Positions 4,648 through 52,328 of a DNA stretch of 64,000 bases are shown here, piece by piece. Position 1 is the stretch's first letter. Each line of letters starts with the position of its first letter. The stretch is from Gammaproteobacteria bacterium (GTDB lineage Bacteria; Pseudomonadota; Gammaproteobacteria; HK1). The notes below the pieces were generated by a model. It did no database searches, was not told the DNA's origin, and worked only from the letters and a program-made list of their open reading frames with translations. The DNA lies in assembly GCA_021773795.1 (NCBI GenBank), contig JAJFJT010000023.1, positions 1-64,000 of the forward strand, written 5' to 3'. A program made the position numbers and the translations under genes.

Positions 4648-4797
4648 GGTTTTCCTCTGCAAAGACCGGGGCACACGGGATGCCCGCAAAAGACGGGATG
4701 ATACGGTTTTTAGGGCGAGGCGGGTAGCGTGGGCAGGAGCGGAAGTGTGATAACTCCGGGATGTAACCGGATGTTTTTAGTGGCCAGAGTTTCTTTA

Positions 4798-4956
4798 GGA
4801 AGTTCTGATTTATCCTGGGCGAAGTAGATTGTGATTCAAAATATTCAGCTTTGAGGCGCGGCTCGCACGTAATAGCCGGCTATTACGAAGAGCCGCAACG
4901 AAAAAGACGGGCATTTTGGACGCAAGATACGAGTTCGCGAGTAGATTAGAGTTTCC
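4798..4956. mobile_element. MITE family A, copy 1
   Basis: A 159-bp element with imperfect terminal inverted repeats (GGAAGTTCTGATTTAT at the left, reading ATTAGAGTTTCC at the right). It is about 80-85% identical by eye to 17596-17754 and 33083-33243. It is flanked on both sides by TTTA (4794-4797 and 4957-4960), a probable 4-bp target duplication. The right TTTA contains the stop codon of the regulator gene at 4958. It has no coding capacity. Confidence 0.85.
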
Positions 4957-4957
4957 T

Positions 4958-6550
4958 TTAGTTCAACACGGGCAGAATGGGGGCGTGGGCGCGATGGGCA
5001 CATTGGGGCCGGGGGCACAGGGGGCAATTGATACCTGCTTTCGTGACCAGATTGCCTTGAATCTGTTCCCTGCCGGCACCGTAGACCAGGCGGTCCGCAT
5101 AGATGGCATCGCAGCCGATCAAGACGCTGTAGATATTGTCGGCGGTGCCATAGGCCTTGGCCTGTTTGTCGACGGTGCGCGCTACAAACAGGAACTCTTG
5201 CTCGTCGGGTAATTGCACTCGCTGAGAGACTATCTGGTTCGGTGACAGAAATGCCCGGTATAGGGCCCATAGTGGGCATGCGCTGCCATGGCGCGGCAGA
5301 CGCAGGTTTGGCAGGCTGAATCGCTTGCTTATGTTGCCGGCCGGATCGGCGCGCAGATAAAGGAACGGTACGCCGTGCGAGCCGCTGCGTTGCAGGGTGA
5401 CCAAACGATGGCAAATCTGCTCAAAGCTGCCGCCAAAACGCTGCTGCAAAACCTGTATGTCGTAGCGTACGGCTTCGGCCATCTCCAGAAATGATTCATA
5501 GGGAAACAGCAAGGCGCCTGCCCCGTAGCGTGCCAATGCCCGGCGTGCCCGCTGACGTGCATCATCGCTGCTTAACTGTTCATTGGCGACGAGGCTGTCA
5601 AGCATGTCTGCGTATTCACCTTCGAAAATGAACTGGGCGATAAGGAAGCGCACGGTTTCGGGCTGGTGCCATGCCTGCATCACCAGATGGCCGTCAACGA
5701 GTTGGTAGTCGGTGGGGGACGGTGTTGGTGTCAGGGAACTGGAGGCTATTCCGGTTTCCTCGGTCGGCGCCACACGCTTTAACATGGCCTTGTGTTGCTT
5801 GGAAAGGTAGTTCGTAAGTGCTAATTCGTTGATTTCACCGCTGACCTCAATGCGTGGCCTCAAGGCCTCCGCTGCCTGTTCGAGCATCGGAAAATGGTTT
5901 TGCTTGCCGATGAAAAAATCTTCCACTTCGCCAGCGGGTGTCGTTGGGCGGGCGGTCATATCAACTTCGTCCATGAAGGCAAAGAGTTTCTTGGCGGTCG
6001 TACCCAACGCGGAGCTGACGCCGGCAAGCAGCGAAATGTATCGCTGGCGTGTTGCTTCCGGCAGGTCGTCAATTTCATTCAGTATTTCGGCGAATGACCG
6101 GACCGATGTTATCTGGCTTAGAATCTTGTGGCTCAACTCAACCAGGAAGCGGTCATGATTGAGCCGGTCGGATAGCGCCTCAACCATTTTGTTTGCCTCG
6201 ATATAGCCACTGTGCAAGCGCAGTAAAGCACGGCCCCAGCCGGGCTCACGGTCGATAATATCCTGGGCTCCATGCGGTTCCATGGCGAGGCCAAGGAACA
6301 GCGCGTCGCCGCTGAGGTTGGTCAGATCCTGAATCAGACGGGTATCTCCATAGCCAGTCAGTTGGCTCAGATCGACGCCCAGGATCCTGGCAATATTGGA
6401 GAGCAAACGCCCACCGATGGAGCGCTTGTTGTGCTCGATAAGATTCAGATAACTAACGGAAATACCGAGCTCTTTGGCGAGCGCAGTCTGGGTTATTCCG
6501 TAGTCTTTGCGAGCCTTACGGATCCTGAAACCTTCCCGTACATGTGCCAT
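4958..6550 (-). CDS. XRE-family short-chain fatty acyl regulator (ScfR/RamB type)
   Basis: The 530-residue product starts with a helix-turn-helix (MAHVREGFRIRKARKDYG, then TQTALAKELGISVSYLNLIE, residues about 1-60), followed by a long middle region corresponding to the IrrE-like/DUF955 part, and a C-terminal ScfR (DUF2083) region ending with a Cys cluster (NCPLCPRPQC). Family members such as RamB and PrpR control acetate, propionate and glyoxylate metabolism in response to acyl-CoA. The expected HEXXH-type zinc peptidase motif is not visible in the middle region. Start 6550 is chosen at the HTH; a start at 6607 would add 19 residues. It is divergent from the binding-protein gene, so it probably controls the uptake operon. 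Its stop codon overlaps the target duplication of a MITE. Confidence 0.8.
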   Translation of the reverse strand: MAHVREGFRIRKARKDYGITQTALAKELGISVSYLNLIEHNKRSIGGRLLSNIARILGVDLSQLTGYGDTRLIQDLTNLSGDALFLGLAMEPHGAQDIIDREPGWGRALLRLHSGYIEANKMVEALSDRLNHDRFLVELSHKILSQITSVRSFAEILNEIDDLPEATRQRYISLLAGVSSALGTTAKKLFAFMDEVDMTARPTTPAGEVEDFFIGKQNHFPMLEQAAEALRPRIEVSGEINELALTNYLSKQHKAMLKRVAPTEETGIASSSLTPTPSPTDYQLVDGHLVMQAWHQPETVRFLIAQFIFEGEYADMLDSLVANEQLSSDDARQRARRALARYGAGALLFPYESFLEMAEAVRYDIQVLQQRFGGSFEQICHRLVTLQRSGSHGVPFLYLRADPAGNISKRFSLPNLRLPRHGSACPLWALYRAFLSPNQIVSQRVQLPDEQEFLFVARTVDKQAKAYGTADNIYSVLIGCDAIYADRLVYGAGREQIQGNLVTKAGINCPLCPRPQCAHRAHAPILPVLN

Positions 6551-6613
6551 GGCGCATCCTTTCCTGCTTGGCCTGAGATGACGTGAGTTACTGGCGCCCG
6601 TCATCATGAAAAT

Positions 6614-9306: not shown

Positions 9307-9447
9307 GGGCACCTCTAAAAATACAATCGTCGTCGCAATACTACGTTTCTCGCAAAAAAGTTTCGCTCACATATCAAATATATGCTGCGTTCAACTTTTT
9401 TACCCAGGCCTTGTCTTGCCTAGAAACCTGGATTTTTAGAGGCACCC
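9307..9447 (+). mobile_element. MITE family B, copy 1, inserted at the livM start codon
   Basis: A 141-bp element with terminal repeats GGGCACCTCTAAAAAT and ATTTTTAGAGGCACCC. It is flanked by the perfect 4-bp duplication TTAT (9303-9306 and 9448-9451). The right duplication forms the ATG of livM, and the left one joins the element's first G to make a second ATG behind the original ribosome site. That upstream ATG (9305) opens a 44-codon frame across the element, ending TAG at 9437-9439, where the stop overlaps the new Shine-Dalgarno AGAGG. Confidence 0.92.
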
Positions 9448-9449
9448 TT

Positions 9450-12191: not shown

Positions 12192-12331
12192 GGGCACCTC
12201 TAAAAACACACTATCGTCGCAATACGGCGTTTCTCTCAAAAAAGTTTCGCTCACATATCAAACAATATGCTGCGCTCAATTTTTTTAACATGCCTTGTCT
12301 TGCATGGAAACTTGAATTTTTAGAGGTGCCC
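12192..12331 (+). mobile_element. MITE family B, copy 2, inserted at a response-regulator start codon
   Basis: A 140-bp element, same orientation as copy 1, ends GGGCACCTCTAAAAA and ATTTTTAGAGGTGCCC. It is flanked by the perfect duplication CAAT (12188-12191 and 12332-12335). The original strong ribosome site GGAAGGAG (about 12176-12183) is left in front of the element, where it now drives a 32-codon leader frame starting at 12190. The right end supplies AGAGGTG for the ATG at 12334. Confidence 0.92.
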
Positions 12332-17595: not shown

Positions 17596-17754
17596 GGAAT
17601 CTCTGATTTATTCTGGGTAAAGTAGATTGTGATTCAAAATATTCAGCTTTGAGGCGCTGTTCGCACGTAATAGCTGGCTATTGCGAAGAGCAGCAACGAT
17701 GAAGATGGACATTTTGGACGCAAGAAACAAGTCCACGAATAGATCAGAGATTCC
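17596..17754. mobile_element. MITE family A, copy 2
   Basis: A 159-bp element with ends GGAATCTCTGATTTATTC and GAATAGATCAGAGATTCC, an 18-bp inverted repeat with one mismatch. It lies in the region between the 5' ends of the receiver and CPBP genes, the only family-A copy here not at a stop codon. No clear target duplication is seen (left flank AGCAA, right flank TAAGT). Confidence 0.85.
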
Positions 17755-24424: not shown

Positions 24425-24683
24425 AGGAGTTTGTCGGATTTGGGACTGTCCTACTCGGCTTTGGCATCGTGCGTCGCCCTGCCTCCGGCATCCATGCAGT
24501 CGTGTGGGAAAGCTATTTTGGCCATATTTCCCCGTCCTTTTCGTTACCTACAGGGATGTAGGGTAAGGCGCGTGAGCAGGAGGCGGAAGCTTCTAATAGA
24601 GTGACTATTATCCTCAAACGACCGGAAAATCTGTCTCAAAACAGTTTTCCCTCGCTACGAATGCCCAAACCCGACAGACTCCC
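24425..24683. mobile_element. MITE family C, long copy
   Basis: A 259-bp element with ends AGGAGTTTGTCGGATTTGGG and CCCGACAGACTCCC. The centre shares TAATAGAGTGACTATTATCC and TCTGTCTCAAAA with the shorter copy at 27781-27943, which lacks two internal blocks of about 50 bp each, so that copy looks like an internal deletion derivative. It abuts the codons of the hydrolase on one side and lies 5 bp from the lpd stop on the other. Confidence 0.82.
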
Positions 24684-24688
24684 AGCCA

Positions 24689-27780: not shown

Positions 27781-27943
27781 AGGAGCCTGTCGGACTTAGG
27801 ACTGCTCTGCTGTGGAAAAGCCATTTTGTCCATATTTTCCGGTCCTTTTCGTCTAATAGACTGACTATTATCCTCAAATGACCGAAAAATCTGTCTCAAA
27901 ATGGCTTCCCCTCGCTACGAGCACCTAAATCAGACAGGCTCCT
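27781..27943. mobile_element. MITE family C, short copy, inside the pdh operon
   Basis: A 163-bp element with ends AGGAGCCTGTCGGACTTAGG and TAAATCAGACAGGCTCCT. It lies between the aceE stop (27953) and the aceF start (27759). It is open to transcription, and its inverted ends can pair to a long hairpin in the aceE-aceF message. There is no coding capacity. Confidence 0.87.
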
Positions 27944-27952
27944 CGCCGGCTG

Positions 27953-32677: not shown

Positions 32678-33112
32678 ATGATTGAGGGGCTTAGCCACAT
32701 CACCTTTGTCGTTCGGGATCTGGGGCGGATGACCCATTTTCTGGAGTCAATTTTTGATGCCCGGGAAGTTTACGCAAGTGGCGATCAAACCTTTTCCATT
32801 TCCCGTGAAAAGTTTTTTCTCATTAACGATATATGGGTGGCGGTGATGGAAGGGGAACCGCTTTCCCGGAAAACCTACAATCATGTGGCTTTCAAGATTT
32901 CCAACGCAGATTTTGATGCCTATGCCGGGCGTATAAAGGCGCTGGGGGTCAATATTCGAGAAAGCCGTAGCCGGGTAAAGGGTGAAGGTCGCTCCCTCTA
33001 TTTCCACGATTATGATAATCACTTGTTCGAGTTGCATACGGGAACGCTGAAACAGCGCCTGGAGCGATACCGTCAGGCTTACGGAAGCTCTGATTTATTC
33101 TGGGCGAAGTAG
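32678..33112 (+). CDS. FosX/FosA-type fosfomycin resistance-like glyoxalase-fold protein, C-terminus encoded by a MITE
   Basis: A 144-residue vicinal-oxygen-chelate protein very similar in layout to FosX hydrolases: MIEGLSHITFVVRDLGR (metal His), FSISREKFFLINDIWVAVME, TYNHVAFKIS (second metal His) and HLFELHTGTLKQRLERYR (metal Glu). FosX adds water to the fosfomycin epoxide with Mn2+; environmental relatives may have other substrates. The last nine residues (GSSDLFWAK) and the stop are encoded inside the family-A MITE beginning at 33083, so the native C-terminus has been replaced. Confidence 0.82.
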   Translation: MIEGLSHITFVVRDLGRMTHFLESIFDAREVYASGDQTFSISREKFFLINDIWVAVMEGEPLSRKTYNHVAFKISNADFDAYAGRIKALGVNIRESRSRVKGEGRSLYFHDYDNHLFELHTGTLKQRLERYRQAYGSSDLFWAK

Positions 33113-33243
33113 ATTGTGATTCAAAATGTTCAGCTTTGAGGCGCTGGTCGCACGTAATAGTCAATCTATTGCGAAGAGCAGTAACGATAAGGATGGACAT
33201 CTTTGGGCGCAAGATACGAGTCCACGAATAGATCAGAGCTTCC
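33083..33243. mobile_element. MITE family A, copy 3
   Basis: A 161-bp element with ends GGAAGCTCTGATTTATTC and GAATAGATCAGAGCTTCC, an 18-bp inverted repeat with one mismatch. Flanks are TTAC on the left and TTAG on the right, consistent with a slightly decayed TTAG target duplication; restoring the target gives GCT-TAG, a stop codon for the fosX-like gene. Overlaps the last 30 bp of that coding region. Confidence 0.87.
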
Positions 33244-33255
33244 TTAGGGAATGTT

Positions 33256-48947: not shown

Positions 48948-50095
48948 GGTGTAGCCTCTTTGTCTGAAGTCTGGATTGCCCACAGCAGCCAGCCCAGTTC
49001 ACGGCCGTCTGCCAATTCCATCGGATGTAGCTCTGCGGCTATGCGTTTGCTGTACTCATGTGCGCGCTGATTGTCATTCATTGACGCAACCCGCCACCAG
49101 GCATAGGCGCGCAGCGGGTCCCGGGGGGTGCCCTTGCCATTGGCGTACAGGGCGGCGAGGTTTCCCTGGGCCGCGGCGTGGCCGGCTAGTGAGGCGCTAC
49201 GATACCAGTGAAGTGCCTTGCCTGCTTCGGGATCGCCGCCGAGTCCGTGGGCATACAGATAGGCCAGGTTGTATTGGGCGCGGGTATGTCCCTGACGTGC
49301 AGCGCGTTTGTACCAGTTGCGTGCCGTTTCCAAGTCCGCCGTGGCACCCAGGCTCTGACGCAATAGTTGAGCGAGATTATATTGTGCCTGAGCGTGGTCC
49401 TGTGACGCGGCCTTTTGATACCAGGAAAGGGCTATCCGAATATTTTTAGCCACGCCTTGGCCGCTGTGATAGAGGCGACCGAGGCCATATTGGGCATCGC
49501 TGTTGCCCGTTTCTGCCGCCTTTCGGTACCAGTACACCGCCTGTTTCAGATCCTGCGTAATGCCCCGTCCTTGCAGATAGAGAAAGCCGAGGTTGTGTTG
49601 GGCCAGGGCATGGTCTCGCTTGGCGGCCTTGCCATACCAATCCGCTGCTTTGAGGGCATCACGGGGAACACCGAGGCCGTTATCGTACAGATAGCCCAGA
49701 CTAAACTGGGCCGGTGCGTCACCAGCTTGGGCGAGAGGCTGGAGCAGGGCGATGGCGGCAGCATAGTCGCGCGTTACACCGAGCCCCTGGCTATACATGC
49801 GCGCCAGGTTATAGCGAGCCGCCGGGTCTCCCTGATCCGCTGCACGGCGAAACCAGAAGATGGCGGAGCGGTGGTTTTGTATGAGTCCCTTGCCTTCGAG
49901 ATACAGCGAACCGAGGAAATACTGGGCAACCGGGTCGCCCCGTTTGGCGTCCTCCTGAAAACCCTCGGCGGCAATACGGTACTCATGGCGGTGATAGGCG
50001 GCGATGGCTGATTCCAGCCGTGCTGATGCCAGTTGGGGTAGGGCCAGGCCAATGAGGAAGAGCAGCCATGGAATGAATAGTCTGGATGGGGGCAT
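48944..50095 (-). CDS. Secreted Sel1-repeat protein, 5' end derived from a truncated MITE
   Basis: About 383 residues. After a signal peptide (PPSRLFIPWLLFLIGLALPQ, cleavage after LASA) come about nine Sel1 repeats of 36 residues, each with an A-x-x-x-L-G-x-L-Y pattern (for example AQYFLGSLYLEGKG, AQYGLGRLYHSGQG). Sel1 solenoids are protein-interaction scaffolds, here likely periplasmic. The ATG at 50095 and a GTG at 50104 are both inside the right half of a family-A MITE, and no native ribosome site is visible, so the original start may have been replaced. It overlaps metC by 4 bp. Confidence 0.85.
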   Translation of the reverse strand: MPPSRLFIPWLLFLIGLALPQLASARLESAIAAYHRHEYRIAAEGFQEDAKRGDPVAQYFLGSLYLEGKGLIQNHRSAIFWFRRAADQGDPAARYNLARMYSQGLGVTRDYAAAIALLQPLAQAGDAPAQFSLGYLYDNGLGVPRDALKAADWYGKAAKRDHALAQHNLGFLYLQGRGITQDLKQAVYWYRKAAETGNSDAQYGLGRLYHSGQGVAKNIRIALSWYQKAASQDHAQAQYNLAQLLRQSLGATADLETARNWYKRAARQGHTRAQYNLAYLYAHGLGGDPEAGKALHWYRSASLAGHAAAQGNLAALYANGKGTPRDPLRAYAWWRVASMNDNQRAHEYSKRIAAELHPMELADGRELGWLLWAIQTSDKEATP

Positions 50096-50138
50096 TTTGG
50101 GCACAAGATTACGAGTTCATAAATAGATTAGAGCTTCC
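50083..50138. mobile_element. MITE family A, truncated copy (right end only)
   Basis: About 56 bp match the right third of the full elements (GCATTTTGGGCACAAGATTA, then GAGTTCATAAATAGATTAGA and GCTTCC). The right end abuts CTAG (50139-50142), which includes the cls stop codon. The left end fades inside the Sel1 gene's start, so the rest was deleted. Confidence 0.8.
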
Positions 50139-51530
50139 CTAGAGCAGTGGCGCGACCATACGGGCAATACCTCCGAGTAACTCCCGCACCCGTCCCACCG
50201 CTCGAACTCCGTGGATAGCGTTGGCTTCAAGCTTGAGGAAATACGCGGCTACGGTAGAGATTTCCTCACTGTCGTAGAAGAAAGAGACCACCTCGTAGTT
50301 GAGAAACAGGCTGCGTGCATCCATGTTGGCCGAGCCCAGAGCAACGAACTCATAGTCTATCAGCAGGGCCTTGGTGTGCAGCATTTTTCCGGGATAGCGG
50401 AAGACTTTCCCGCCTGCCGCTTGAATGTCGCGCAGGAAGCCGCGGCGCACCAGATCGATCATGCGATTGTCCGAGCGCCTCGGTACGATGATGCGGACAT
50501 CGACACCACGATGGGCGGCGATGGTCCAGGCATGGGTGAGGGCATCATCCGGAATGAAATAGGGGGTGATGATCCAGATCCGCTGCCGGGCCTGGAAGCT
50601 GGCGCTTAGTATGGCGGTATAGAGCGGATCATCAGGGACATCGGGTCCCGAGGGAACCACTTGCACGCTGGCAGCGGGTGTTAGTGCCGTAGCGGGAGGT
50701 GCCATAGGTGGATAGTGAAACAGCGCCTCACCACTGGCGAACTCCCAGTCCGAGCGGAAGATGGCATCGTAATAACGGGCGGCAGGGCCATCCAGCAGGA
50801 AAGATAAATCCAGCCAGCGGTCGGGGTCTGGTCCTGCGCCTATATATTCGCGGGCGATATTGGTGCCGCCAGCCCAGACGCGCTGGCCATCCACCACCAC
50901 CAATTTACGGTGATTGCGGAGATTGGCATTGGCGCGAAAGGCCCCGAGTAATAACGGATTGAAATAGGCCACATATCCCCCGGCCGTGGTGAGGGAGTTA
51001 AGTGCTCCGCGGGTGGTGGCCCATGAGCCTGCACCGTCGAGCAACATATGCACCTCAATGCCCTCGGCTGCACGCTGCGCCAGCCGGGCAATAATATCCT
51101 GTCCCACCTCATCCGGGCTGAAGATAAAAGTGGTGACATAGATGTTGCGGTGGGCACTTTCAATGAGACCGGTGAGAGCGGCATATCCTGCTTCTCCTTC
51201 AGTGCAGATTTTTACCTGGTTGCCGTGGGTTGCTCCGGGGATCTGATAGCTGCGTAGCAGGCGATCAACCGGGTTGGCACTGGCCTCGGGTAATACATCC
51301 TGGGCGGCGAGCACTAGATTTTCCTTGCTTGCTGCCATCTTGCGCATCTTGCGCCCACCAAAGGCCAGATACAGTGGGACACCCAGCCAGGGGGCAAGGA
51401 CGATAATCAGGAACCACGCTAGGGTGCCGGCGGGGGAGCGGCGCTCGCGCACCAAGTGGGCGAGCACCAGCAGCGAGAGCAGGAAACCCGCGATGACCGT
51501 GAGATGGGAAAAGACCAGCAGTTCAGACAT
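50139..51530 (-). CDS. cls: Cardiolipin synthase
   Basis: A 463-residue membrane-bound phospholipase-D-fold enzyme that condenses two phosphatidylglycerols to cardiolipin. Two N-terminal membrane segments (residues about 5-25 and 38-58) precede two HKD motifs: NHRKLVVVDGQRVWAGGTN and MLHTKALLIDYEFVALGSAN. The second is followed by SLFLNYEV as in the family. The stop codon is part of the CTAG flank of a truncated MITE. Confidence 0.93.
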   Translation of the reverse strand: MSELLVFSHLTVIAGFLLSLLVLAHLVRERRSPAGTLAWFLIIVLAPWLGVPLYLAFGGRKMRKMAASKENLVLAAQDVLPEASANPVDRLLRSYQIPGATHGNQVKICTEGEAGYAALTGLIESAHRNIYVTTFIFSPDEVGQDIIARLAQRAAEGIEVHMLLDGAGSWATTRGALNSLTTAGGYVAYFNPLLLGAFRANANLRNHRKLVVVDGQRVWAGGTNIAREYIGAGPDPDRWLDLSFLLDGPAARYYDAIFRSDWEFASGEALFHYPPMAPPATALTPAASVQVVPSGPDVPDDPLYTAILSASFQARQRIWIITPYFIPDDALTHAWTIAAHRGVDVRIIVPRRSDNRMIDLVRRGFLRDIQAAGGKVFRYPGKMLHTKALLIDYEFVALGSANMDARSLFLNYEVVSFFYDSEEISTVAAYFLKLEANAIHGVRAVGRVRELLGGIARMVAPLL

Positions 51531-52187: not shown

Positions 52188-52328
52188 GGGTACCTCTAGA
52201 AATTCAAGTTTCCATGCAAGACAAGGCATGAGTAAAAAAATTGAGCGCAGCAACTGTTTTATATGTGAGCGAAACTTTTTTGCGAGAAACGCCGTATTGT
52301 GACGAAAATTGTATTTTTAGAGGTGCCC
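52188..52328 (-). mobile_element. MITE family B, copy 3, inserted at the kinase start codon
   Basis: A 141-bp element in the opposite orientation to copies 1 and 2, with the same ends GGGTACCTCTAGAAAT and ATTTTTAGAGGTGCCC. It is flanked by the perfect duplication TGAT (52184-52187 and 52329-52332). The right duplication contributes the AT of the kinase ATG. The upstream ATG at 52186 opens a 38-codon leader frame. Confidence 0.92.

Follow-up and report, generated by a model that had tools for sequence, protein, structure and literature searches.

Several bacteria carry short, non-coding, palindromic elements in many copies between their genes, among them ERIC/IRU (127 bp), YPAL and Correia/NEMIS (PMC2229807). 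ERIC is transcribed together with neighbouring genes and has been discussed as affecting mRNA stability, and RUP of Streptococcus pneumoniae is a MITE whose presumed mobilizer, acting in trans, is an insertion sequence (IS) with the same ends (PMC2229807). Family A, the repeat analysed here in a gammaproteobacterial genome, is likewise short, non-coding, intergenic, palindromic and present in many copies, and differs from ERIC and other palindromic MITEs in its YTAR target, in having identified partner ISs and in its occurrence in many families of the class. Its sequence is presumably distinct from the ERIC consensus as well. With RUP it shares the supposed mobilization in trans by an end-sharing IS and the presence of stop codons in all frames, whereas the host lineage, the length (107 bp in RUP) and the IS family are different; the IS of RUP is of the IS630 type, with a TA target. 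Like the IS5 group (NF033581 transpos_IS5_4; E. coli IS5), family A has terminal inverted repeats that start with GGAA (or GGCA) and carry CTGAT or CTGAA at positions 8–12, and is flanked by 4-bp YTAR duplications, but it has no transposase, measures 159 or 58 nt instead of ~1.17 kb and has only the first 16–20 nt in common with the group. Family A was found neither in the literature searched, where its end sequences matched unrelated papers only, nor in Rfam, where no family scored above its gathering threshold at the element in the loci L001, L067, L068, L070 and L090 or in the window; the search for literature on stop codons as insertion sites of ISs or MITEs likewise found nothing relevant. 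Here we report that family A is a real and widespread IS5-group MITE, and that its positions at stop codons have an ordinary explanation.

In the window, that is, the whole 64,000-nt stretch of DNA that was analysed, all four copies of the original prediction are present (Table 1). The genome (2.56 Mb in 36 contigs) holds 60 copies: 43 long ones, 16 of 58 nt and one of 102 nt. They were identified with BLAST, sequence patterns and a covariance model; C27:32449 and C18:18315, both 58-nt copies, come from BLAST only. The long copies mostly measure 158–161 nt, with one of 166 nt; the 58-nt copies retain the two ends but lack the middle, and single-end remnants also occur. With 43 full-length copies genome-wide (E ≤ 1e-21) the family is not a chance similarity, and as a short element without a transposase, with terminal inverted repeats, a target duplication and a high copy number, it is a MITE in its make-up. 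Elsewhere, a Thiotrichales MAG carries a 309-nt family A element (L089:3252–3560) that has gained a further self-complementary stretch close to its middle, and about 100 or more copies were seen in G226 (L209–L291), an incomplete 2.2-Mb genome in which the commonest stop codon is TGA.

Table 1 Family A and family B features in the window
Feature	Position	Strand	Remark
Left target duplication TTTA of the 4798 copy	4794–4797		
Family A full-length copy, 159 nt	4798–4956	+	
Right duplication TTTA of the 4798 copy	4957–4960		Holds the TAA stop (4958–4960) of the regulator gene 4958–6607(−)
Family A full-length copy, 159 nt	17596–17754	+	Flanks GCAA/TAAG decayed; at no stop codon
Left duplication TTAC of the 33083 copy	33079–33082		Decayed YTAG; site of the former stop of the VOC/fosX-like gene
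Family A full-length copy, 161 nt	33083–33243	+	
TAG within the family A element	33110–33112	+	Present stop of the VOC/fosX-like ORF 32678–33112
Right duplication TTAG of the 33083 copy	33244–33247		Intact
Truncated family A copy, right end only	50083–50138	+	
Duplication CTAG of the 50083 copy	50139–50142		Holds the TAG stop of the cls-like gene 50139–51530(−)
Family B copies	9307–9449, 12192–12330, 52188–52328		

The ends of family A read GGAA[G/C]CTCTGATTWATTC, and its duplications are 4-bp YTAR sequences (CTAA, CTAG, TTAA or TTAG). In the source genome these duplications are old and mostly decayed, identical pairs remaining at 16 of the 60 copies; identical 4-bp duplications, mostly CTAA, TTAA, TTAG or CTAG, flank 19/28 copies in G073 and 36/48 in G226. 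The TA-R core with stop triplets on either strand, which had been predicted from the flanks in the window, is borne out as the palindromic YTAR and agrees with a known target consensus, the conserved duplication motif of E. coli IS5 also being YTAR (PMC10359306). The search for an autonomous IS with the same ends, which the original prediction had proposed, succeeded in other genomes of the class. Intact IS5-family partners of 1.17–1.19 kb with YTAR-type duplications were found in three of them: G318 has a 1171-bp IS with GGAACCTCTGATTAATTC ends and a ttat/ttat duplication, G137 has a 1191-bp IS with ttag/ttag and a second copy with ctag/ctag, and G313, of the same genus as G073, has an IS whose GGAACCTCTGATTAATTCT ends match the MITE of that genus. 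In G271, an IS5 ORF lies behind GGAAGCTCTGATTTATTC and ttag, and its transposase matches NF033581 IS5 (E = 9e-85). The partner ISs carry an IS5-type DDE transposase and family A itself carries none; family A is a non-autonomous element of the IS5 group. The matches found in the source genome comprised decayed fragments only, with no intact partner IS among them, so present mobility of family A there is unsupported; one of these fragments is a decayed 1.1-kb IS5-type element (L179:811–1913, contig C30) with the related ends GGAAGCTCTGAACAATTC and GGAAGCTCTAAGTTATTT and a broken transposase. A DDE_Tnp_1 match in the same genome (L061) was rejected as a partner for want of family A-type ends, and plasmid relatives of the partner transposase (~60% identity) were set aside with ends that are related but different (GGCAATGCTGAT, YTAR). 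On a viral contig, TTAA-GGAACCTCTGATTAATTC runs straight into an ORF; an exact match to the family A core was not found in the viral contigs.

Three of the four window copies had been described as lying at stop codons. This was true of the copies at 4798, 33083 and 50083, the one at 17596 being at none, but it does not extend to most copies of the genome. At 17 of the 60, the TAA or TAG stop of a called gene is exactly the TAR adjoining the element (18 stops in all, one copy having a stop at each side), and the other 43 are not at a stop. The same gene caller, with our own hexamer-based gene calls, was used for copies and controls, the controls being YTAR sites in the same DNA, that is, in the loci taken around family A copies. 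Among non-genic YTAR sites, 72/546 (13%) were at stops, which gives family A an odds ratio of 2.6 (Fisher p = 0.003); the excess was 3.4-fold in G073 (5/28 copies against 6% of intergenic YTAR sites, p = 0.03) and not significant in G226 (8/48 against 12%). Such an excess would be expected if the transposase or its complex actively targeted translation stops beyond YTAR, for instance via transcription or termination, and against all intergenic YTAR sites an excess of 2- to 3.4-fold stays. It was removed only by a within-gap null, in which the flanks were joined and the YTAR sites present in the same intergenic gap were counted: 14 copies at stops were observed and 14.3 expected in the source genome, and 13 against 11.9 over 32 informative loci pooled from three genomes (p = 0.40). 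The absence of an excess within gaps, the 43 copies that are not at stops and an orientation that is unbiased relative to neighbouring genes make active targeting improbable. The link of family A to stop codons is real but ordinary, because the element has a YTAR target and is confined to gaps; what stands of the original claim is some excess at stops, and what falls is a preference for them beyond YTAR.

Family A is very probably an IS5-group MITE moved in trans into YTAR, with its stop positions following from the target and its duplication. An IS5-group transposase acting in trans would cut at the GGAA[G/C]CTCTGAT... ends, insert the element into YTAR and duplicate the 4 bp. YTAR is its own reverse complement and holds TAA or TAG whichever strand is read, so that a gene whose last bases are Y-TAR would be a harmless site, and duplication on insertion would keep a full stop on the gene's side. 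Selection would mostly remove intragenic insertions; the YTAR sites that remain, those in the gaps, include many stops, which would explain why about a quarter of the copies are exactly on a stop. The duplicated stop may later decay, as in the fosX-like gene, because the element supplies stop codons itself. At most 9 of the 60 copies overlap a called gene, against 58% of YTAR sites that are genic (p = 6e-12), and, as there are stops in all frames of the element, these nine are the only ones that may have clipped a gene. When their frames were joined, six ended within ~50 nt of the junction with either copy of the duplication, two more did so with one copy, and one continued for 116 nt. Element-free sites were found in congeners. 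The G002 orthologue of the fosX-like gene lacks the element and reads ..CGTCAGGC[CTAG]GAA.., the gene ending in GGC CTAG; the locus in the window has ..GGC TTAC before the element and TTAG beyond it. The original stop was therefore the target's own TAG. Joined through the far duplication copy (TTAG), the frame terminates right at the junction, and joined through the near one it runs on, and the protein now ends 10 codons into the element, at a stop that is encoded by the element as had been proposed. At a further locus (C13:198702), the element-free sites are CTAG in G001 and ATAG in G002, and the stop is at the target.

The second repeat family of the window, family B, is a 141-nt MITE whose ends are GGGCACCTCTAAAAAT and whose 4-bp duplications vary (TTTA, ATAA, TTAT, TGTA, TACA and others). 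The window copies had been taken to mean that families A and B split to opposite ends of genes, and a deliberate partition of gene ends would produce the pattern seen among them. Genome-wide, however, among the 40 best matches listed, a start codon lies within a few bases of family B in 8/30 copies (5/29 if a 100-aa ORF is required) and 4/29 copies coincide exactly with a stop; family B does not qualify as a start-codon family. Given these counts, its varied targets and the fact that the stop positions of family A follow from YTAR, a deliberate partition is extremely improbable, and this part of the original prediction does not hold. A third repeat of ~163 nt, with the ends GAGTCTGTCAGA and GAGCCTGTCGGA, occurs in the window at 24592–24687 and 27852–27947 and in dozens of copies in the congeners G001 and G002; the ATAG-ATTGA-CTAT at its centre is similar to the family A apex.

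The unexpected part of family A is the conservation of its hairpin across dozens of families. On the strand used here, the whole element folds into one long hairpin; of 274 genomes sampled from the class, 60 contain it according to a covariance model built from 26 copies. When 30 genomes were represented by one element each and aligned by sequence only, both partners had changed in 55 of 62 pairs, 92.5% of cells are paired (76% when shuffled and ~40% when slid) and covariation is 0.51 against 0.20 in shuffled alignments (0/500 shuffles). The relatives found in this way have a constant length of 156–162 nt; some have other ends (GGGCACCTCTATTAATTC, GATACCTTTGCATAAAAG) yet keep the core, and in the most divergent ones the ends are less well conserved than the core. 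One element in G091 (L152:1501–1659) forms a perfect-looking hairpin of −116 kcal/mol; its ends (AGTACATCAACCAC) are quite unlike those of family A, yet it matches the core.

The fold favours one strand, with a mean folding energy of −72 kcal/mol for the copies of the source genome against −45 kcal/mol on the other strand. This bias and the covariation in the stem would suit an element that the host keeps as a 3′-UTR regulatory hairpin, either a terminator or an mRNA stabilizer, which would explain its positions beside stops. Against such a role, family A is unbiased in its orientation, facing the same way as the upstream gene in 58 cases and the opposite way in 71, many copies decay, and variants private to one copy do not favour pairing, which places single copies under no visible constraint; retention by the host for this purpose is quite improbable. 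Private variants comprise 28 GU and 32 AC changes, those common to four or more copies 22 and 5 (p = 0.0025), and between genomes the consensus Watson–Crick pairs have changed to G-U in 120 cells and to A-C in 32, all of these being comparisons in which counts are small, cells between genomes are non-independent and the pairs were picked from the consensus fold of that strand. That pairing is favoured in common but not in private variants suggests selection on the folded single strand while family A multiplies, not after landing. Mutation alone does not produce the GU excess, and an origin of this excess in strand-biased mutation was unsupported (28 private C>T against 36 G>A). As G-T is better than A-C in DNA too, the GU excess is no proof of RNA.

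We put forward tentatively, as a possibility we do not favour outright, that the element can spread, as RNA or single-stranded DNA, only if one strand adopts a specific ~159-nt hairpin whose internal loops are conserved (core TTCAAGGCGCGAATCGCACGTAATAGCNGGCTATTGCGAAGATTTGCAACG). Since elements from many families of the class combine the same core with differing terminal repeats, the structured core, and not the ends, would then mark a lineage of structured MITEs that spans the class and either switches its transposase or evolves together with it. For the stop positions, plain target chemistry explains an apparent gene-awareness of a mobile element: a palindromic, stop-containing target that is duplicated on insertion turns stop codons into safe landing pads, and the stop left behind can decay and lengthen the protein into the element, as in the fosX-like case. 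The structured strand is the part of family A worth following, and a MITE hairpin that is conserved by covariation through dozens of bacterial families and favours one strand would be a good system for asking whether a folded strand has a function in MITEs.
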